Program-made: the position numbers and the translations under genes | In this document: positions 768 to 11,747 of the stretch, one piece after another | Layout: each line of letters begins with the position of its first letter | Numbering within the stretch: the stretch's first letter is position 1 | Origin: a virus | Strand: one strand, 5' to 3' | DNA: 22,196 bases | Virus record (IMG/VR): IMGVR_UViG_3300021962_000719 | Span: 1-22,196 of that record | The notes under the pieces: model-generated | What the model saw: the letters and a program-made list of their open reading frames with translations, nothing else | What the model was told of the DNA's origin: nothing | Database searches by the model: none

Positions 768-1187
768 TTAGAGAGCGCTGATCTCTCGCTGAAGATACCA
801 AACTGCCTTCTCAAGGTCTTGCTTGCGCGCACCCTTGTAGTCAGCACGAGCGACATACTTCACAACATTGCCGAGGTTGTAGTTGAGTTTCTTGGCTTCG
901 ATGAAGTCAATCGTCTCAATGCCCCCTGCCTTGTAGTGTGGAGGATGATTCACCAAGTCATTTAAGGTTGGTTCTTTCATCACGATTGGAACTGTCTTGT
1001 TAACCTTTCGCTTAGCTTTACGCTCACGCACTAGAGTCTGACGAGACTTTATTCCAAGCTCTTTTCTGGCAGTAGAAACCATTACATGAATGGCGGGTCG
1101 TTCCACGCCTGACCGTTTGATCAAAGTGTCGATCTTCATGGCGGGATTTTTCTGTAACAGTTCACGAATGATAGCGATCTTACTCAT
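768..1187 (-). CDS. DUF3310 family protein (SaV-like)
   Basis: The C-terminal half (about residues 80-137 of 139) carries the DUF3310 signature: a VNHPPHYKAGG opening, an ETIDFIEA helix, then NVVKYVARADYKG and DLEKAVWYL. This family is common in tailed phages and has no firm biochemical role. The N-terminal 50 residues (MSKIAIIRELLQKNPAMKI onward) look like a small winged-helix or helix-turn-helix segment, followed by a strongly basic linker, which suggests nucleic-acid contact (inference). The start at ATG 1187 follows AAGGAG with good spacing. A longer in-frame extension has no such site and would overlap the upstream gene extensively. The chosen start overlaps that gene's stop by 8 bases. 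An intrinsic terminator follows directly. Confidence 0.85.
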   Translation of the reverse strand: MSKIAIIRELLQKNPAMKIDTLIKRSGVERPAIHVMVSTARKELGIKSRQTLVRERKAKRKVNKTVPIVMKEPTLNDLVNHPPHYKAGGIETIDFIEAKKLNYNLGNVVKYVARADYKGARKQDLEKAVWYLQREISAL

Positions 1188-1392
1188 CGCTCTTCTCCTT
1201 CTTGGCATAACGCCGTTTGATTGAAACAATGCCCCCTTCCTCAGAGGGCTTCCTTGCTTGAGCCATACCATCAGCAAGCTCATACGCTAGAGTTGGAACG
1301 CGTAGGACAGAACAATCTCCTTTCATCAGTAATCCTATCATTGCAAATCCAGCGTGTAAGTCGCGTAGATATTCTTGTTCTTGTTCATTCAT
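1180..1392 (-). CDS. Small hypothetical protein, 70 aa
   Basis: The family is not recognised. The protein begins MNEQEQEYLRDLHAGFAMIG and ends in a basic tail (KRRYAKKEKSDE). It has one cysteine and no clear membrane segment. Its start lies two bases after the stop of the nuclease gene and has only a weak ribosome binding site, so translation is probably coupled. Its last codons contain the ribosome binding site of the following DUF3310 gene. The reading frame is supported by this tight packing more than by any similarity. Confidence 0.65.
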   Translation of the reverse strand: MNEQEQEYLRDLHAGFAMIGLLMKGDCSVLRVPTLAYELADGMAQARKPSEEGGIVSIKRRYAKKEKSDE

Positions 1393-1394
1393 CG

Positions 1395-1703
1395 TTAGGC
1401 AACATTGCGCCTCTCTAAATGTTCAATGGTTGATTCAAGAGTGCCGTTAGCGAGGGTTTCTTCATCCACCACTAGCGACACCCCACCACTTGATCGGATG
1501 TCATCCATGTTCTTGACTTGTAGAGCAGTCGGTTTACCTCCTTTTGCTTTTGCCTCTATTGCCAAGAACCATCCTTGCACACAGCACAGAAAATCTGGCA
1601 CACCTGCGTTGCCATATCCTGCGCCATGCGGCATTGCGTAATAGATTCCCTTTGCTTTGAGAATCTTTTTGATCTTGTCTTTGACTTTACCCTCTGGGGT
1701 CAT
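1395..1703 (-). CDS. VRR-NUC domain nuclease
   Basis: At 102 aa this is a minimal VRR-NUC fold nuclease, part of the PD-(D/E)xK superfamily. These are commonly found in phages and act on branched or damaged DNA during replication and repair. Visible signature: GVPDFL with Asp37, then FLAIEAKAKGG with Glu50 and Lys52 as the catalytic E-x-K, and a Gln near residue 62 in the following helix (ALQVKNMDDI). The N-terminal helix PEGKVKDKIKKILKAKG is typical of the family. The start overlaps the upstream stop by four bases (ATGA) and has AGGTG just upstream. The intact catalytic residues suggest an active enzyme. The specific substrate is not determined by the sequence. Confidence 0.88.
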   Translation of the reverse strand: MTPEGKVKDKIKKILKAKGIYYAMPHGAGYGNAGVPDFLCCVQGWFLAIEAKAKGGKPTALQVKNMDDIRSSGGVSLVVDEETLANGTLESTIEHLERRNVA

Positions 1704-2668
1704 ACATCACCTGCGGGAGTAAACACCCAAGTATGGTCATAGTGTGTTGGCCTGTTGTCATAACAAAAGACAGCATCAAGACTTTCGTTGTACTCATCAA
1801 CGATGGGTATAAAGTCAGCTTTCTGATACTGACTGTTTTCGTATGCCAACTTGGTCATGGTGATGAATGGCAAGAGTTCTTCGTGATCCTTGGGGTTGAT
1901 ATAACGCTTAAATGGCTCAACCGCTTCGATGTCACATTTGCGATTTCCTATATCCATATTGACCGCCTTGAACTTGCCAACAAGCATGTGCCCATACTCG
2001 TCTATCCCGATCTGATAGTAGGGGTTAGTGAAGAACCGAGTCACTTCCAATGTTTTCAAGTTTTGTAGCTCATCAGCCCTGTTCATTTTGTCAAGTTCTA
2101 TTTTACATTTAGTTAGGTCGATGTCAAGCTTTTCTGTATTAGTACTTTCCCCTAGTCGGTAGGCTAGTAACGCATGAATCTCGTCTGGAGAAAATTCGTT
2201 TGATTTATTGCTATTGCCTTTAGACTTTTGGAGGATGTACATTGCATCGCCTACCTTCTTGGTTTTCCTAGCAGTCAGGGCATCCTTATCAGGCACGACT
2301 TCCTGGCGTTTAATAGCCGCCATGAGTGATGAGATTTTTGTGCTATGTAAGGTTTCTTTATCAGCCCTGCTACTACCTCGTTGCTTCAAGTAGTATGGTG
2401 AGCGATAGCAATACTCCGTAGTATTGTTGTCAATACCGCCATTGGGTGTGACAAAGAGTTTGCACACAGCAATGCCATATTGATTAACCATCTGATAGGC
2501 ATTTTGTTTCTCACTTGATAGTGGATCGTTAGCTTTTGTGCGTGACAAGACTTTCAAACCATACTTGAAGTTCATCTCACGCACGAGTGCATACACAGGG
2601 TCTGCTTTGAGTTCTTCGATGCGTTGCTCACTCACGCAATCTTCGTAAAAAAGTTTTTCAATCATCAT
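1700..2668 (-). CDS. Hypothetical phage protein, 322 aa
   Basis: The family is not recognised. The protein is soluble, mixed in charge, and rich in Tyr, Asn and Lys. It shows no Walker motif, metal-binding cluster or membrane segment. It opens MMIEKLFYEDCVSEQRIEEL. Two adjacent ATG codons are possible starts. The ribosome binding site AAAGGAG lies 3 bases before the first and 6 before the second, so the second (2665) may be the one used. It lies 10 bases after the equally long unknown gene at 2678-3676 and overlaps the nuclease gene by four bases, so it is one operon with the VWA/AAA+ module upstream. Its size and position make it a possible partner of that module (inference). Confidence 0.8.
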   Translation of the reverse strand: MMIEKLFYEDCVSEQRIEELKADPVYALVREMNFKYGLKVLSRTKANDPLSSEKQNAYQMVNQYGIAVCKLFVTPNGGIDNNTTEYCYRSPYYLKQRGSSRADKETLHSTKISSLMAAIKRQEVVPDKDALTARKTKKVGDAMYILQKSKGNSNKSNEFSPDEIHALLAYRLGESTNTEKLDIDLTKCKIELDKMNRADELQNLKTLEVTRFFTNPYYQIGIDEYGHMLVGKFKAVNMDIGNRKCDIEAVEPFKRYINPKDHEELLPFITMTKLAYENSQYQKADFIPIVDEYNESLDAVFCYDNRPTHYDHTWVFTPAGDV

Positions 2669-2677
2669 GTTCTCCTT

Positions 2678-3676
2678 TTAGTCTGCTGAATATCCATACT
2701 GTTTGACAGGTGTGCCATTGACGGTGATAGTAATAGGCCAAGCTGATGCCGCAAACTTTTCACCTATGTCAAAGGTCTTCTCTACAAAGACATCGGGCGA
2801 GTTCTTGTACAACATCTTGGTCATGTTTCGCTTCGTTTTCTCAAAGATTGCTGAAGGCGAGTCTACTCTCGCCCACCCTGAGTGCTTACCAGAACGCGCC
2901 ATTGAGCACATGGAGCCATACCGGTGGTAGATTGCGTTCAGGACAAATGCATCAAGTGGCGCACCATTGATGATCTTCATAGCTTCCTCCATGACATCAA
3001 TATCGTCATAGTCAGTGCGATCAGGGAAGTGATCATCCCATACATCCTTGACTGTTGATGCCCACACATCCATATCAGTTATCGCACTTGCCATTACCTC
3101 GGTAGTCTTGAAGAAATTTTCATACTGCTTTACCAATGCTTTGCTTTTAGTTCGATTGACACTGAGCGTTGTGACTTTCACATCGCCTAATGGTTTCATA
3201 TCTTTGTTCACTCGCATGCCATGGTAGATCGGGAACATTTGCCCACTAGTGTGATATACCACCCCACCCCTTCGTGAGTCATTATTGAATAATCCTACTG
3301 AAAACCTGTTCAAGAAACATCTGTTGCCTTGACCGTAGTGATTAGCAATAAATTCAAATGTTTCATCAGGTCGAACTCTTAGTAGAGTGTTGGGGCGGCT
3401 AACATACTTGTAGTATTCATTGGTATGAGACTTGAATGTGTACTCTCCCTTAGCTTCCAGTTCGTCATATTCCTTTTTCGTGATAGGAACACGCTCACCG
3501 GTCTTGTCATAACAAAGATCAAACACTTTCTCGCCGTTCTCTTCCTCAACGAGCAAGTAGTAGCGCAACTCCCTGCGTGATGCCAATGGGAATCGGTTGG
3601 GGGAGCCACGATAGTGGTTATTGTTAGCAACTCTATTGCAGAGAGACTTGTAGCTGATGTAGTCGTAGAAACTCAT
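2678..3676 (-). CDS. Hypothetical phage protein, 332 aa
   Basis: The family is not recognised. It starts MSFYDYISYKSLCNRVANNN after the ribosome binding site AGAGG. It is rich in aromatic and basic residues, with an ITKKEYDELEAKG segment and a C-terminal part (FDIGEKFAASAWPITITVNG) that looks beta-rich. No catalytic motif is evident. It follows the VWA protein gene by 17 bases and precedes another unknown protein of similar size, both co-oriented and tightly spaced. This suggests a conserved unit working with the AAA+/VWA pair (inference). A frame in the other phase at 3379-3630 is a shadow. Confidence 0.8.
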   Translation of the reverse strand: MSFYDYISYKSLCNRVANNNHYRGSPNRFPLASRRELRYYLLVEEENGEKVFDLCYDKTGERVPITKKEYDELEAKGEYTFKSHTNEYYKYVSRPNTLLRVRPDETFEFIANHYGQGNRCFLNRFSVGLFNNDSRRGGVVYHTSGQMFPIYHGMRVNKDMKPLGDVKVTTLSVNRTKSKALVKQYENFFKTTEVMASAITDMDVWASTVKDVWDDHFPDRTDYDDIDVMEEAMKIINGAPLDAFVLNAIYHRYGSMCSMARSGKHSGWARVDSPSAIFEKTKRNMTKMLYKNSPDVFVEKTFDIGEKFAASAWPITITVNGTPVKQYGYSAD

Positions 3677-3693: not shown

Positions 3694-4974
3694 TTATTCA
3701 TTGTCAATCATGACTTTCTTACCCGCAGGTGGAGTCCAGTCTTTGTTCTGAGTAACCATCCACAGGGTGGGTGGGACGATATTCCACTGAGCGTCATTCT
3801 CGACATACCCATCGGTGAACACGATCACACACTCTGCTCGGATGTTCTCTTTGTTGATGTAATCAGAAACACACCCAACACGAGTACCACCGCCACCCTC
3901 AGGCTTGAGCAGTTTGGCAATGTCGGAATACTGTTCCGGTGCAAACTTCTGCACAGAATGAACAGAAGTGTCCCACCACATTACACGCACAGCTTCGGGC
4001 TGAGTGAGTTCGCAAATAGAGACCAGTTCCGTAGCAAACTCGCTCAACTCACGCTGACCGATAGAACCTGATGTGTCGATGGCAATGACGATCTCGCCTA
4101 TGGTTTCATTCTCCATGCCTGGCACTACAAAGTCATTAGCCAAGTGACGCTTGTTCAGCTTGCGCCATGTGTACTCGTCCTTGCCCCTCATGGCACTCGA
4201 CACGAATTCACGCAGAACCTCACGCCAATCTACCTTTGGCTCAAGAAGATCAGATATGACACGAGGCACTTTTGAACCCATGCGACCCGCAAGCAGACCG
4301 CCTTCACGCAACGCCTTGTCGATCTCTTTGCCTAATGCTTGGGCTTCCTCAGGCGATAGTTCACGAAAGTCATGCTCATCTAGCTTGGACACATCATAGG
4401 TCTTACCGTTGACTGTTACAGTCTCAGGCTGATCCTCTTCGATATTTTGTCCTCCACCTGATGGTGGGGTATTACCTTGCCCCCCATTTCCATTCCCCTT
4501 CCCCTTCCCATTCCCCTTCCTAGGTTTGGCGTGTTTCTTGAGATACTCAAACACCTGACGCATTGACCAGTCATGGAACATCTCGTCATACACCGCACCG
4601 TCAGGCAACTCAACGATTGGCTCATTGGAGTTAGCTACATTGCTCTTGATGTTCACAATGACATCATTGACTATAAAGTCAGCCGCCAAGTTCGCCATCT
4701 TGGGGTTTTCCTCAAACATGGCACGACCATGGGTGACATGCTTCAAAGCAATGTGGAGATTCTCGTGTAGAACCAAGCCACGCTTCTTAGACTCTTTGTC
4801 GATGGTATCCAAGTACCAACGGGAATAGCGCTTGTTGACCCCATCTGTGTATGCGGTGAACTTCCTGTCTACTACGGTAGACTCGCCCATGAGAATCACA
4901 CCCGAATACAACGCAGTATCTGGATGTTTCATCAGTGCTACATGTGCGCGTTTGATTGCAGTTTCTTGGTTCAT
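3694..4974 (-). CDS. VWA protein with metallopeptidase-like N-terminal domain (DUF2201/CobT-like)
   Basis: At 426 aa it has two domains. The N-terminal domain (about 1-145) holds HENLH at residues 70-74, an HExxH zinc-metallopeptidase signature, and a following AADFIVND helix (97-104) as in the DUF2201 putative metallopeptidase domain. A low-complexity Gly/Asn/Lys linker spans about 152-176. The C-terminal VWA domain (about 292-426) keeps the MIDAS motif DTSGS (Asp300, Ser302, Ser304), Thr364 in GGGGT, and Asp388 in FTDG. Such proteins pair with MoxR-type AAA+ ATPases, as in CobS-CobT and RavA-ViaA, where the VWA part recruits the target. The matching ATPase is encoded just upstream at 5220-6335. 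Whether the peptidase site is active cannot be told from sequence. The start follows the 63-aa gene by two bases. Confidence 0.88.
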   Translation of the reverse strand: MNQETAIKRAHVALMKHPDTALYSGVILMGESTVVDRKFTAYTDGVNKRYSRWYLDTIDKESKKRGLVLHENLHIALKHVTHGRAMFEENPKMANLAADFIVNDVIVNIKSNVANSNEPIVELPDGAVYDEMFHDWSMRQVFEYLKKHAKPRKGNGKGKGNGNGGQGNTPPSGGGQNIEEDQPETVTVNGKTYDVSKLDEHDFRELSPEEAQALGKEIDKALREGGLLAGRMGSKVPRVISDLLEPKVDWREVLREFVSSAMRGKDEYTWRKLNKRHLANDFVVPGMENETIGEIVIAIDTSGSIGQRELSEFATELVSICELTQPEAVRVMWWDTSVHSVQKFAPEQYSDIAKLLKPEGGGGTRVGCVSDYINKENIRAECVIVFTDGYVENDAQWNIVPPTLWMVTQNKDWTPPAGKKVMIDNE

Positions 4975-4976
4975 GA

Positions 4977-5168
4977 TTACTTTACCTCTTTGAATTCAAA
5001 ATGATCTTCGGTTTCCACGACTTTGATTTTGTTCTGCGCTATTTGACGCAACAACATGATCGTGTGGTGCATGGTTTGTTTGCGATGGTTGTGTGCATCA
5101 TGCCAAAACGCAGTGGCGATGAACGCCCACGCAAACAACACCATCTCAGTGATTGATACTTCAATCAT
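4977..5168 (-). CDS. Small membrane protein, 63 aa
   Basis: The N-terminus MIEVSITEMVLFAWAFIATA forms one hydrophobic membrane segment (about residues 6-22). A His-rich basic stretch follows (WHDAHNHRKQ), then a charged C-terminal tail. The ribosome binding site AAAGGAGAG is strong. The gene lies between the AAA+ and VWA genes, with palindrome copy b in its leader, and its stop is two bases before the VWA start. It might tether the module to the membrane, but this is inference. No family is recognised. Confidence 0.72.
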   Translation of the reverse strand: MIEVSITEMVLFAWAFIATAFWHDAHNHRKQTMHHTIMLLRQIAQNKIKVVETEDHFEFKEVK

Positions 5169-5195
5169 GATTCTCTCCTTTCAGTTAAAAACAAA

Positions 5196-5213
5196 TCCCA
5201 CGATGTCGTGGGA
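5196..5213 (-). repeat. Conserved leader palindrome, copy b
   Basis: An 18-base perfect dyad, TCCCACGATGTCGTGGGA, followed by CGCTAAT. It lies between the stop of the AAA+ gene and the ribosome binding site of the 63-aa gene. It has no T-run, so it is not a normal terminator. It may be an mRNA hairpin or a protein-binding site. Confidence 0.8.
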
Positions 5214-5219
5214 CGCTAA

Positions 5220-6335
5220 TCAGAACAACTCGTGATTGGCTTTAGCCCAGTCAGCGATCTTCTGATTGTTACGAGCGAGCCGCAGACTGCGACTGTTACG
5301 CATCATCATGGTGAAGAACACGCTTTGTACCTCGGCACTTGGGATACGCTCAACGAACTGCATGAACTTCGTTAGCTGATCTTGAGTATCCATGGTGTCG
5401 ATAGCTTGGAACATGAGCATCAACTGTGCGCTGATTTCCTTCGGAATATCAACAGAGGTGGGGTCTTTGATAATGTCCTTGAAGTCAGCCAAGGTTTTCT
5501 CAAGCGAGAGGAAAGCCGCCATGTCAGCCGCAGCAGCCGCACCGATAGTACCTGCCAATGCCACCTTCGTACCATTCTCACCGAGGATGTCACGATAGCG
5601 CACGATTGCATCTGCCTTTGCCAACGAGCGAGGCGACACAAACGATAGTGTCGTCATTGATGGCTTGAAGATGTATGGATTATCTTTCTGATCACCATCG
5701 GTGTAGGACGCCAAGCAACGAGGGAACATCGCAACAAACGCACGAATGATACGAGAGATACCATTCTCCGATGCCCACTCAAGCCACTCATTCATTGTCG
5801 GCTTCGCCATGCGCATGATGCACACACGATTACCCGCATGAGCAAGCATGGTATCGCCCACGCCGTCTGAGGCATTGTTACTTGTTGCAAAGATCATTGA
5901 GTGTTTTGTCAATGGACGATCGCCCACCATACGCTCAAGCATCAGCCTAGTGAAGATCACTTGCAACAACTTCGGAGACTTCATGAACTCGTCAAGCAAG
6001 ATGATCTTGGGTTTGGGGTCATCAAGATTGAAGAGACTCGACACATAGTATTCCAACTGCTTGGTTGTATGGTTGGGAATAGTCATACCAATGTCTGACA
6101 TATCCTTCACAGGACAGTCAACATAGATGTAGTCGTACTTGTCTCCATCAATGCTAGTGCCATCGGCCGGAGAGCGCCACTTGTCACCGTTATCCATTGC
6201 CATCATAGACAACAGGGAAGTCTTGCCACATCCAGGCTCGCTCTGAATCACAGGCGTAATGAACTCAGCGATGGTTGGGATGATGGTGCGCAACTCTTTG
6301 ATGGTCACGGTATCGTGGGTTACTACTTTAGACAT
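5220..6335 (-). CDS. MoxR/CobS-like AAA+ ATPase
   Basis: This 371-aa ATPase is of the AAA_5/MoxR type. Walker A is SEPGCGKTS (residues 32-40; the usual first Gly is Ser32). Walker B is IILLDEF with Asp115 and Glu116. Sensor 1 lies in MIFATSNN (Asn153/154), and an arginine in AGNRV near residue 170 fits the expected arm of this family. MoxR proteins form hexameric rings that remodel a partner through a VWA adaptor. The adaptor candidate is encoded at 3694-4974. Phages are known to carry CobS/CobT-like pairs, but their target is generally not established. The start ATG 6335 follows GGAG by eight bases. The gene is flanked by the DUF3150 gene upstream and a small membrane protein downstream. Confidence 0.9.
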   Translation of the reverse strand: MSKVVTHDTVTIKELRTIIPTIAEFITPVIQSEPGCGKTSLLSMMAMDNGDKWRSPADGTSIDGDKYDYIYVDCPVKDMSDIGMTIPNHTTKQLEYYVSSLFNLDDPKPKIILLDEFMKSPKLLQVIFTRLMLERMVGDRPLTKHSMIFATSNNASDGVGDTMLAHAGNRVCIMRMAKPTMNEWLEWASENGISRIIRAFVAMFPRCLASYTDGDQKDNPYIFKPSMTTLSFVSPRSLAKADAIVRYRDILGENGTKVALAGTIGAAAAADMAAFLSLEKTLADFKDIIKDPTSVDIPKEISAQLMLMFQAIDTMDTQDQLTKFMQFVERIPSAEVQSVFFTMMMRNSRSLRLARNNQKIADWAKANHELF

Positions 6336-6403
6336 GATGTATTACTCCATTAACTGATTGAAAACTTAAAAGAAAAACGGAAATTCGCTCTAAGAATTTT
6401 TAC

Positions 6404-7324
6404 CTATACGCATTGAAATGCGCCGAACTTTCCGAGGATGGAATCTACATCCTCTTTGACCGAATTGCGCATAGCATCACTCTCTCGAATGATCTCAGCA
6501 TCAACACCGGACAATGCTTTCTCTAACGATACCCTTGCTTCCTCCAAAGCGGGGTCTGAGGTGAGGTTGAAATCCTTGAATGAATTGCACATATCAAGGG
6601 CTTTTTGGATTGTCGAATCATAAATCTTACGCTTCCTGAGCTTGGTCTCTCCGGTGTTGTCATCCACGCCCATCTCGTCATAGCCACAGCAATGACTGAT
6701 GGACTTCATCACTTCGATGAACCTTGTTTTCTGTTCCACGACAATGTGGGAGACTATTTCCTCGGCTTGATTCTTGTATGTCTGGAACAAGTCATCAGCG
6801 ATGTCCTGAGCGATGGCGCATCGAAAGTCGTTCATCGGAACCTCTGAAACGAAAAGGCGCATGCCAAACTTTGATGCCAGTTGCTCTTTAGGCGGGTAGT
6901 CATTGCGGTCAAACATATCGCCTTGCTTGAACGCCATGTCCGAGACGATAGACTCATACTCATTGATAAAGTCTGTAACCAACGCATTGAGCGCCTGATC
7001 GTGCGCATGGTACTCACGCTTGAACTTCTCAAGGCTGACCGAGGGCAGGTAGTCTTGTGCATTGTTCCACCGATAGGTGACACGCTTTTGCCAGTTGTAG
7101 ATGGTCTGTCGATAGTTCACTATCGCCTTGTGTTTCGGATGGTTAGCAAGCAAGTTCTTGACATACTTGCCCGCGTTCTGATCAGCGTTCTTTGAGGTAG
7201 TAACCTCATTGCTGATGGCACGGTCTTGCTTTGTAGCAGACCACACATTCACATCTATCGCTACCAACACCCCGCTAGATGCAAGGCTGATAAGGTGCTG
7301 AGGTTTTTGCAGTTCAACATTCAT
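6404..7324 (-). CDS. DUF3150 family protein, 306 aa
   Basis: The sequence resembles DUF3150 proteins, found in phages and mobile elements and often near AAA+ ATPases. I assign it from overall pattern: an early GVLVAIDVNVWSATKQDRAI, a Lys-rich NAGKYVKNLLANHP region, a YNWQKRVTYRW segment near residues 80-90, and a long helical C-terminal half. No catalytic motif is evident. The true start is ATG 7324: GGAGAG lies four bases upstream, while the ATG twelve bases earlier overlaps that site. It is the first gene of the unit driven by promoter P1 (7407-7435), with palindrome copy c in its leader. It probably works with the AAA+ and VWA proteins (inference from order). Confidence 0.75.
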   Translation of the reverse strand: MNVELQKPQHLISLASSGVLVAIDVNVWSATKQDRAISNEVTTSKNADQNAGKYVKNLLANHPKHKAIVNYRQTIYNWQKRVTYRWNNAQDYLPSVSLEKFKREYHAHDQALNALVTDFINEYESIVSDMAFKQGDMFDRNDYPPKEQLASKFGMRLFVSEVPMNDFRCAIAQDIADDLFQTYKNQAEEIVSHIVVEQKTRFIEVMKSISHCCGYDEMGVDDNTGETKLRKRKIYDSTIQKALDMCNSFKDFNLTSDPALEEARVSLEKALSGVDAEIIRESDAMRNSVKEDVDSILGKFGAFQCV

Positions 7325-7346
7325 GATTCTCTCCATTCAAAATGAA

Positions 7347-7364
7347 TTCCACGATGCCGTGGGA
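7347..7364 (-). repeat. Conserved leader palindrome, copy c
   Basis: TTCCACGATGCCGTGGGA is followed by CGCTAAGTAAGG. It matches copies b and d except for small changes in the outer arm and centre. It lies in the 5' leader of the DUF3150 gene, downstream of promoter P1. Confidence 0.78.
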
Positions 7365-8993: not shown

Positions 8994-9314
8994 TTAAAGG
9001 ATGTTGTAGCCGGTGCAGAATTCAAACAGCTCGGCTTCGCTCATTGGCTCGTGGATGGTCAGTCCATCGAACTCGTCATCGATGTCGTTGAACTCATCGA
9101 AGTCGAATGGGCGATCAAGGAACTCAAGGTTCTGTGTGTGGTAGGTGTCGATGCGCAGCTCGGTGCGCATATAAGAGTCCACGCCATCGTGGGTTTGTGG
9201 TTTAGGTTTTGCGGGTCGGCGCAGGCTCAAGGTCTTGCGCACGATGCGGGGCAGTTGCTGACGATCAGCAATGGGTGTCGCTGTTGAGGCGACAAAGGCA
9301 AAGCGTATGGACAT
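8994..9314 (-). CDS. Hypothetical acidic phage protein, 106 aa
   Basis: The start ATG 9314 follows AAGGGGA. A longer frame reaching 9437 would run through the palindrome, leader and promoter P2, and is rejected. The product opens MSIRFAFVASTATPIADRQQ, has a basic middle (RRPAKPKP), and a very acidic C-terminal third (FDFDEFNDIDDEFDGL). This acidity could suit a DNA-mimic or protein-interaction role, which is speculation. It is the first gene after promoter P2, with palindrome copy d in its leader. Confidence 0.72.
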   Translation of the reverse strand: MSIRFAFVASTATPIADRQQLPRIVRKTLSLRRPAKPKPQTHDGVDSYMRTELRIDTYHTQNLEFLDRPFDFDEFNDIDDEFDGLTIHEPMSEAELFEFCTGYNIL

Positions 9315-9347: not shown

Positions 9348-9365
9348 TCCCACGATGTCGTGGGA
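9348..9365 (-). repeat. Conserved leader palindrome, copy d
   Basis: Identical to copy b over the 18-base dyad TCCCACGATGTCGTGGGA, followed by CGCTAAGTAAG. It lies between promoter P2 and the gene at 8994-9314. Just upstream on the transcript, AAGTCG and CGACTT (9372-9401) can form a second stem. Confidence 0.8.
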
Positions 9366-10117: not shown

Positions 10118-10714
10118 TTAGGCGTTATACGCCTTCCAGAACGATGCCACCGCCGCCTTGAACTTGTCAGGCTTCGCTGATGCGTCACCACGACTCGCCT
10201 TAGTCTTCACTGACTTCTCCCAGTCGCTGAAGACTTTCTTAGCCGATTCTTCAAATGACTTGGTTTCCCTAGTCACGCCACCCTGAGCCTTGTTCAGGAT
10301 TTTCTTAGCCGCGCGCTTCAGGTCACCAAGCCTATTGGAGCAGTAATCCTGTGCCGATGTCCTGATGTCTTCCACGATTTTGCGGAGCTGTGGATTTTCC
10401 TGTCCAAGCTTACCGTACTCATGCGTGGAAAAACTGAAGGCGTAATCCACACCTATTTCGATTTTCTCCACCTTCTTATTGGAGAGAATCTCAGGTGTTG
10501 CCAAAGTGTAGTTTCCACCGATGATGGCGTAGACTTTGGCGGGATTGCGTTCAGACCACCGGCGGCGGTATCCACGGTACAAGGCGTCGCGCGCTTCAGC
10601 GCTGACTTCTTCAGGAAAGCCAGGGATTACATCCATAGCTTCGTTGGCACGGTCTTCCAGTGAGTCACTGGATTGGGCCTGTGCATAGCCCAGTTTTTCA
10701 AGGTTTGCAGTCAT
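10118..10714 (-). CDS. Unrecognised phage protein, 198 aa, paralogue of 10944-11594
   Basis: The family is not recognised. It aligns along nearly its whole length with the neighbouring gene product. Shared blocks are GFP(E/D)EV..EARD.LY.GYR.R, NPAK.YA.I.G.Y, the central VEIGVDYAFS-like block, and YCSNRLGDLKR. A central variable region is followed by a basic helical C-terminus with SRGDA. There is no membrane segment and no known catalytic motif. The ribosome binding site CGGAG precedes the start. The leader (10715-10800) holds a CTGAC/GTCAG hairpin and a TTTACT box like the other cassettes. A strong terminator follows. It forms a single-gene unit between repeat elements. Confidence 0.82.
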   Translation of the reverse strand: MTANLEKLGYAQAQSSDSLEDRANEAMDVIPGFPEEVSAEARDALYRGYRRRWSERNPAKVYAIIGGNYTLATPEILSNKKVEKIEIGVDYAFSFSTHEYGKLGQENPQLRKIVEDIRTSAQDYCSNRLGDLKRAAKKILNKAQGGVTRETKSFEESAKKVFSDWEKSVKTKASRGDASAKPDKFKAAVASFWKAYNA

Positions 10715-10943: not shown

Positions 10944-11594
10944 TTATTCGCCGTGTTTCCACGCTACCATAAACGCTACTTTTGCCTTGTTGAACCGATC
11001 AAGATCGGCAGTGGCATCGCCCCTAGATTTTGCGGATTTCAACCGATCAAAGGCATCAGTAAAAAATGCCTCGACATACTCCGAGAAATTCTTGTTAGCA
11101 GTACGCTTGCGCTCTTTGCCCTGATTGAGAATTTTCCGGCATTGGCGCTTGAGATCGCCCAACCGGTTGGAGCAATAGGTTGAGGTTTTTTCCCTGATCT
11201 CTTTCACCAACTCATGCAGTGCCGCATTGGTGCTAGATAGTTTCCCAAACTCTTGGCTAGAGTATGAGAATGCATAGTCAACCCCGATCTCTACCCGCTC
11301 TTGCTTGGGATTCTTGAGTTGATCTTCGGTTGGGGTCACATAATGACCATTGATAACCGCATAGGTTTTAGCGGGGTTGATTTGAGAGAAACGCTTGCGA
11401 TACCCCGCATAGAGTTTGTCCCTTGCCTCTTGGGGTACCTCATCGGGAAACCCTGCAATGTTATCAAGCGCATATTGCGCTTGCCCAACTGATGCCTGAT
11501 ATGTTCCGGCTTGTTGGTAACCGAGATCCTCAAGATCTTTGATGATCAGAGGGGCGATACCCGCCTGAGCGGGATGGTTTGCTTTAGTAGCCAT
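10944..11594 (-). CDS. Unrecognised phage protein, 216 aa, paralogue of 10118-10714
   Basis: The second member of the paralogue pair, with the same conserved blocks: GFPDEV.QEARDKLYAGYRKR, NPAKTYAVINGHY, VEIGVDYAFSYSS and YCSNRLGDLKRQ. The C-terminus again ends in a basic helix with SRGDAT. The start is ATG 11594 after ATGAGG. A longer frame to 11738 would run through the leader hairpins and promoter-like box, and lacks a ribosome binding site. Divergence from its partner is substantial (roughly half the residues by eye), so the duplication is not recent. The function is unknown; basic tails and the lack of membrane segments suggest a cytoplasmic nucleic-acid or protein-binding role (inference). 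Confidence 0.82.
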   Translation of the reverse strand: MATKANHPAQAGIAPLIIKDLEDLGYQQAGTYQASVGQAQYALDNIAGFPDEVPQEARDKLYAGYRKRFSQINPAKTYAVINGHYVTPTEDQLKNPKQERVEIGVDYAFSYSSQEFGKLSSTNAALHELVKEIREKTSTYCSNRLGDLKRQCRKILNQGKERKRTANKNFSEYVEAFFTDAFDRLKSAKSRGDATADLDRFNKAKVAFMVAWKHGE

Positions 11595-11626
11595 GATAAA
11601 CCTCATAATGATGAGAGTTGATAAAA

Positions 11627-11657
11627 CCCCTTGCGGGGACTGAATCGCTTGATTCAG
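11627..11657 (-). promoter_or_regulatory. Leader hairpins resembling an attenuator
   Basis: In the minus-strand leader, CTGAATC/GATTCAG (11640-11657) forms a 7-bp stem. It is followed by CCCC-GCAA-GGGG (11627-11638) and TTTT. The second resembles a weak terminator inside the 5' leader of the gene at 10944-11594, as in attenuation. Confidence 0.45.
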
Positions 11658-11666
11658 TATTGGTAG

Positions 11667-11725
11667 AGTATCAGTTGAGGGACTGATAAGTAAAGTTTCA
11701 TGGTGGAGTGGGACACTATTTAGCG
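11667..11725 (-). promoter_or_regulatory. Possible cassette promoter with degenerate palindrome, copy g
   Basis: On the minus strand, TTTACT (11689-11694) and GATACT (11667-11672) are 16 bases apart. A degenerate palindrome element (TGGGACACTATTTAGCG) lies immediately upstream. It would drive the 216-aa paralogue. Confidence 0.45.
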
Positions 11726-11747
11726 ATCTCGCTCCCACGCGCCCGCT

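Follow-up and report, generated by a model that had tools for sequence, protein, structure and literature searches.

A MoxR ATPase, a metallopeptidase-VWA protein and a DUF3150-like partner encoded together in phages and on plasmids

What would a phage gain from a MoxR-type ATPase encoded together with a VWA metallopeptidase? The question is raised by a gene cassette on the minus strand (positions 7324 to 3694) of the virus fragment IMGVR_UViG_3300021962_000719 from IMG/VR, whose 22,196 bases were analyzed as a whole and are referred to here as the window. An earlier note on this sequence had described a module of a DUF3150 protein, a MoxR ATPase and a VWA metallopeptidase, phage versions of which have no settled target. 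The latter statement has to be qualified, since such pairs have already been studied: gp24 and gp25 are core genes of N4-like phages (PMC4193335, PMC7650795), and for the MoxR and metallopeptidase-vWA proteins of group 2.2 jumbo phages virion assembly and proteolytic processing have been proposed (PMC7824862). The pair is therefore already known in phages. A DUF3150-like partner common to phages and plasmids appears to be undescribed in the literature searched, which included few subscription papers and yielded nothing on DUF3150. According to the sequence comparisons presented here, this protein is a conserved partner of the pair beyond the phage lineage of the window, plasmids included. With a probability of about 0.5, the cassette is considered to specify an ATP-driven remodeling machine of mobile elements, not of virions, that would act early at the DNA stage.

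Three conserved proteins in phages and on plasmids

The Walker A, Walker B and sensor-1 motifs attributed to the ATPase in the earlier note are present (SEPGCGKT; ILLDEF, residues 112-117; TSNN, 151-154), and R170 and SPR (234-236) are candidates for the arginine finger and sensor 2. All of them, Walker B as LLDEF, are nearly unchanged across 26 diverse relatives. Pfam gave a marginal AAA match (E 0.04), while PHROG 1297, an ATPase family, was matched with E 3.7e-50. Comparison with a profile of MoxR proteins from N4 and plasmids yielded 99.9% probability in hhalign (E 6.6e-37); the best solved relatives of that profile are midasin (2e-29) and, more weakly, CbbQ/NorQ (1e-4). A direct search of solved structures in PDB with the profile of the window ATPase revealed no relatives. 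Judged by its motifs and by these profile matches, the ATPase is placed in the MoxR clade.

For the VWA protein, Pfam detected the metallopeptidase domain DUF2201_N (1.5e-22; 80.9 bits, cut-off 23.2) and the VWA domain DUF2201 (3.6e-18; 66.3 bits, cut-off 26.4). The HENLH sequence and the intact MIDAS, both predicted previously, turned out to be invariant: HENLH, DTSGS, T364 and D388 are kept in 35 relatives. HExxH is found in 66/66 relatives of the window clade, in 63/63 of a second phage clade described below and in 14 of 15 N4-like and plasmid members, and D.S.S in 66/66 of the window clade. D99, invariant in the window clade and corresponding to a D that is likewise invariant among the N4/plasmid proteins, is a candidate for the third zinc ligand. 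The profiles of the window and N4/plasmid VWA proteins match with 100% probability (hhalign, E 8.9e-62). Flagellins, the sole solved structures matched by the VWA profile, were dropped as a composition effect of the low-complexity linker region. Since the gene for this protein adjoins the ATPase gene and its MIDAS is intact, the two are regarded as a MoxR-VWA pair. The corresponding family PHROG 1314 is labeled 'HNH endonuclease', and phage records name its members 'HNH' or 'homing endonuclease'; this is likely a mis-annotation that has spread, because the window member consists of a DUF2201_N metallopeptidase and a VWA domain.

The third protein is more difficult to assign. It has no DUF3150 match in Pfam or NCBIfam, and three of its relatives score 14-16 bits with PF11348, below the cut-off of 24.9. 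Its profile matches plasmid proteins of about 300 residues, encoded between MoxR and VWA genes, over almost the whole length (hhalign 99.9%, E 2.6e-31), and the 'DUF3150' protein of Synechococcus phage MinM2 (E 9e-13); the DUF3150 annotation is carried by the MinM2 member and one of the plasmid members. A bona fide PF11348 protein (E 1e-90) is encoded on plasmid pRA1. Against the profile of the window protein it scores weakly (E 0.003), although it ranks first of ten pRA1 proteins. Because the link to PF11348 is weak and clear homology exists just to proteins annotated as DUF3150, the designation DUF3150-like is used, and the label of the earlier note is retained as a distant-family assignment. 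No close relative of the protein was found directly in deposited phages, and profile searches yielded no solved structure. Likewise, the pRA1 protein as query revealed no relatives among viral contigs, and no DUF3150-like gene was detected in N4-like phages, in the Rhizobium phage TM27B or in Pseudomonas jumbo phages.

Scanning viral contigs with the plasmid profile revealed 180 relatives, 80 of which were kept as the second clade. In all of these contigs that extend far enough, the genes for MoxR, the DUF3150-like protein and VWA follow in this order, and many loci contain a DUF3310 and a VRR-like gene downstream. The arrangement MoxR, hypothetical protein of about 300 residues and VWA-like protein is also present on plasmids from Burkholderiales (Cupriavidus, Robbsia, Variovorax, Paraburkholderia and Burkholderia) and from Rhodovastum. 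All three plasmid proteins are homologous to those of the window, but MoxR comes first and the DUF3150-like gene stands in the middle, whereas the latter comes first in the window; the genes for the 332- and 322-residue proteins following the VWA gene in the window (Table 1) were not seen on plasmids. The trees of all three proteins place the Rhodovastum plasmid next to cyanophage MinM2 (support 0.97-0.996), so that the trio genes have moved jointly between phages and plasmids. In outline, the three trees agree; they correlate with r 0.96-0.98, values inflated by clade structure.

Comparisons with known systems revealed several partial similarities. In N4-like phages (Schitoviridae), gp24 and gp25 (PHROG 1297/1314) specify a homologous ATPase and metallopeptidase-VWA protein side by side, and their middle, non-structural position also resembles that of the window cassette; in contrast to the window, no DUF3150-like gene was detected there, and the 332- and 322-residue proteins are missing. 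Group 2.2 jumbo phages share the two-domain architecture of the VWA protein and the MoxR partner, but the available part of the description assigns the pair to virion assembly and mentions no third partner (Iyer et al. 2021, PMC7824862). On pRA1, the same logic of AAA, DUF3150 and VWA is realized on a mobile element, yet with proteins of the CbbQ-like AAA_5 and CobT-like VWA types, without the metallopeptidase domain present in the window protein, and with the weak DUF3150 homology given above. MoxR-vWA ternary conflict systems (Kaur et al. 2020, PMC7159879) also combine MoxR and VWA with a dedicated third protein. These third components (VMAP, iSTAND, FtsH, beta-propeller) belong to other families, and neither the third nor the 332- or 322-residue protein of the window matched them in Pfam, NCBIfam or PADLOC. 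Moreover, the conflict systems occur in multicellular bacteria, the window-type trio in phages and plasmids. PADLOC gave no match for the window genes, and for the ATPases of relatives only weak P-loop matches.

Gene order, linkage and additional proteins of the cassette

The open reading frames of the module are located as described in the earlier note, all on the minus strand (Table 1). Taking the longest reading frames, gaps among the six genes from the DUF3150-like to the 322-residue protein do not exceed 68 bases, which supports one operon-like cassette containing the MoxR-VWA pair. For the DUF3150-like protein, a start at 7324 is preferable to that of the longest reading frame at 7336, relatives opening with MN(V/M)ELQKP. 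A scan of IMG/VR anchored on the ATPase yielded about 80 contigs with 70-81% identity. Across them, the order DUF3150-like, ATPase, (63 residues), VWA, 332, 322, VRR, (g70), DUF3310 is kept, and the arrangement is therefore real and not due to chance. For the window, no match at the DNA level was obtained among 50,697 deposited phage records. Many uncultured phages belong to the lineage, and their contigs (L079, L048, L063 and others) reach about 60-66 kb.

A larger complex including the 332- and 322-residue proteins had been suggested before, and linkage of their genes to the module was 100% in both directions. Among contigs reaching far enough, the 322-anchored scan detected the gene for 332 in 50/50, VWA in 35/35, ATPase in 28/28 and DUF3150-like in 25/25, and the 332-anchored scan 322 in 61/61, VWA in 43/43, ATPase in 39/39 and DUF3150-like in 35/35, the two contig sets overlapping within one phage lineage, so that linkage reflects in part common descent. 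The VRR-type nuclease gene accompanies that for the 322-residue protein in 65/65 loci. Sequence conservation differs considerably within the cassette, mean pairwise identity being 78% for the ATPase, 72% for the DUF3150-like and 68% for the VWA protein, but 41-42% for the 332- and 322-residue proteins. The same is seen between the window and its relative G005: capsid 92%, terminase (TerL) 87%, ATPase 81%, VWA 66%, 322-residue protein 42% and 332-residue protein 36%.

For both variable proteins, AlphaFold2 models were obtained with high mean predicted local distance difference test values (92.9 for the 332- and 91.5 for the 322-residue protein). Comparison with PDB gave only weak entries, for the former with a best VIA-align Z of 4.4, and for the latter Foldseek E values above 0.1 and a best VIA-align Z of 4.9; three viral predicted structures stand out for each model. 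That the two proteins are paralogues was ruled out (hhalign probability 0.2%). Downstream of VWA, 60 loci of the second clade encode a family of about 296 residues that matches the 332-residue profile over 160 columns (hhalign E 3.7e-6), the next best cluster being weaker by four orders of magnitude; a PDNTFEF-like motif is common to both. By sequence, this family is a candidate for a fourth shared component. For the 322-residue protein, that clade yielded no counterpart. The two genes for proteins of about 300 residues after VWA in MinM2 were also considered as homologues of the 332- and 322-residue proteins, without support from single-sequence comparisons.

The small membrane protein of the earlier note does have one hydrophobic helix, but its membership is not fixed. 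A small reading frame of like shape with a common motif occupies the gap between ATPase and VWA genes in 45 of 76 loci, and in 17 loci this gap is shorter than 100 bases; the 63-residue protein is thus a common, but not a universal, part.

Table 1. Features of the cassette and its downstream genes in the window
Feature	Position	Strand	Evidence
DUF3150-like third component (g310), 306 aa	6404..7324	-	hhalign to plasmid ~300-aa and MinM2 proteins
MoxR-type AAA+ ATPase, 371 aa	5220..6335	-	PHROG 1297, hhalign to N4/plasmid MoxR profile
Walker A SEPGCGKT, residues 32-39	6219..6242	-	nearly invariant, 26 relatives
Hairpin GTCCCACGACATCGTGGGAT with T-rich tail, between ATPase and 63-aa genes	5195..5214	-	recurs near same gene starts in relatives
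63-aa protein, one N-terminal hydrophobic helix, optional part	4977..5168	-	hydropathy; similar reading frame in relatives
Metallopeptidase-VWA protein, 426 aa	3694..4974	-	Pfam DUF2201_N and DUF2201; hhalign
HENLH zinc motif, residues 70-74	4753..4767	-	invariant in relatives
MIDAS DTSGS, residues 300-304	4063..4077	-	invariant in relatives
332-aa protein, confident predicted fold	2678..3676	-	linkage, model
322-aa protein, confident predicted fold	1700..2668	-	linkage, model
Small VRR/Hjc-type nuclease-like protein, 102 aa, next operon gene	1395..1703	-	PHROG 93 endonuclease E 6.4e-16
DUF3310 protein, 171 aa, further downstream	768..1283	-	Pfam DUF3310 2.6e-18

Possible function of the cassette

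In the window, the plus strand holds the genes for terminase, portal and major head protein; small early-type genes and the cassette are read from the minus strand, between about 9.4 kb and position 1. In G005, the cassette opens an arm, opposite the structural arm, with genes for a family-A DNA polymerase (3e-30), a PD-(D/E)XK nuclease and a DUF927 protein. A family-A polymerase gene is located about 3.4 kb downstream of VWA in the second clade, helicase and DNA polymerase genes follow the MoxR-VWA pair in the N4-like phages EcP1 and nACB1, and an HNH gene and a primase gene follow the cassette in MinM2. On the IncA plasmid pRA1, the genes for DUF3150 and the CobT-like VWA protein lie after the recombination genes bet and exo, with the CbbQ-like ATPase gene just before them.

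An early remodeler or peptidase acting at the DNA stage is favored because of the plasmid copies, the neighboring replication genes and the classification of N4 gp24/gp25 as middle genes (PMC4193335). The ATPase, zinc and MIDAS motifs, all intact and conserved, are in line with this. In such a machine, the MoxR-type protein, presumably as a ring, would power a VWA co-chaperone with an N-terminal zinc-metallopeptidase domain, and the DUF3150-like protein would be a third, dedicated partner. Its genes would be expressed early, in one operon with those for replication, and the machine might remodel or clip a putative client, perhaps a nucleoprotein of replication or recombination or else a host factor bound at that site. 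The 332- and 322-residue proteins, which change fast, could be partners specific to the lineage or adaptors facing the client, with the one-helix protein as an optional accessory.

Several points weigh against this proposal. Ring, complex, interactions, peptidase activity, timing and client are inferred, neighborhood is weak evidence for function in phages, and N4-like phages manage without a detectable DUF3150-like gene. In the related integrative and conjugative element SXT, deletion of bet, exo, s067, s068 or s070 lowers transfer at most 10-fold and that of s063 about 100-fold (PMC2791158), the region being mostly non-vital for transfer; for the trio, these deletion data serve as a lead only. 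Finally, four virion proteins are encoded near the gp24/gp25 homologues of the N4-like roseophage RPP1 (PMC4193335). This second structural module would rather fit a role in virion assembly or maturation, in which the MoxR-VWA pair would be a chaperone for heads or tails under assembly and structural proteins would be processed by the metallopeptidase domain. This was proposed for the same domain pair in jumbo phages, the tail system of the archaeal virus ATV being the precedent (PMC7824862). For the cassette such a role is improbable. It fits poorly because plasmids with the same cassette have no virion and phage copies lie upstream of DNA polymerase genes; the cassette arm is opposite the terminase, portal and capsid genes, and N4 gp24/gp25 are middle genes, as mentioned. 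A purely virion role is also argued against by conservation of the third partner outside the lineage, plasmids included.

The main rival explanation is host takeover or counter-defense, in which the machine would unfold or cleave a host defense or regulatory protein and the 332- and 322-residue proteins would be target-specific adaptors. Phages and plasmids, which share the cassette, face the same defenses, the zinc motif is intact, and the completely linked 332 and 322 genes differ from their G005 copies far more than those for ATPase, TerL and capsid. However, other early genes of the lineage (VRR, g70, DUF3310) diverge almost as much, so that the fast change of 332 and 322 alone is no proof of an arms race, and few genes of the early arm are as conserved as those for the ATPase and the DUF3150-like protein. 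The target is putative, PADLOC recognized none of the window genes and, in relatives, gave P-loop matches only. This explanation is regarded as rather unlikely. It is very improbable that the cassette specifies a chaperone inserting a metal or cofactor into a metalloenzyme of the phage or its host, in the manner of NorQ/NorD or chelatases. Bacterial MoxR-VWA pairs do act in this way (PMC9976466), but no metalloenzyme gene was recognized in or beside the cassette among the relatives examined, and the VWA partner carries a peptidase-type N-terminal domain instead.

Known MoxR-VWA pairs are remodelers, NorQ/NorD being one example (PMC9976466; also PMC7159879). Extending the early DNA-stage remodeler, it may tentatively be proposed that MoxR, metallopeptidase-VWA and DUF3150-like proteins form a general, undescribed three-part machine, a unit common to distant phages, cyanophages and large plasmids that would remodel or cleave proteins on the DNA of the element or disarm a host factor, with the 332- and 322-residue proteins as lineage-specific client adaptors. 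The MoxR-VWA pair is listed among the core genes of the N4-like family without a function, and the plasmid trio narrows the search: with a conserved third partner and the trio on plasmids, the function has to be one that requires no virion.

Repeats and further features of the window

The hairpin listed in Table 1 includes a 16-base palindrome, CCCACGACATCGTGGG, which is repeated at positions 5197-5212, 9349-9364, 7348-7363, 692-707 and 9178-9193. Allowing up to three mismatches, eight matches were obtained, compared with 0.12 expected. The palindrome lies directly upstream of several minus-strand early gene starts, is often followed by a T-rich tail and recurs by the same genes in relatives; it was not found in the second phage clade. 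An attenuator, a terminator or an operator are candidate functions.

Two adjoining minus-strand reading frames, 10118-10714 (198 residues) and 10944-11738 (264 residues), specify similar proteins with GFP(D/E)EV and SNRLGDLKR stretches in common. By sequence, they apparently represent a tandem duplication; neither matched a PHROG. Between about 10810 and 12980, near-identical short peptides, among them TRPTTNNWYQKW and TRATTNNWSQNS, can be read at several intergenic places, which suggests that repeated non-coding DNA separates the early arm from the late one.

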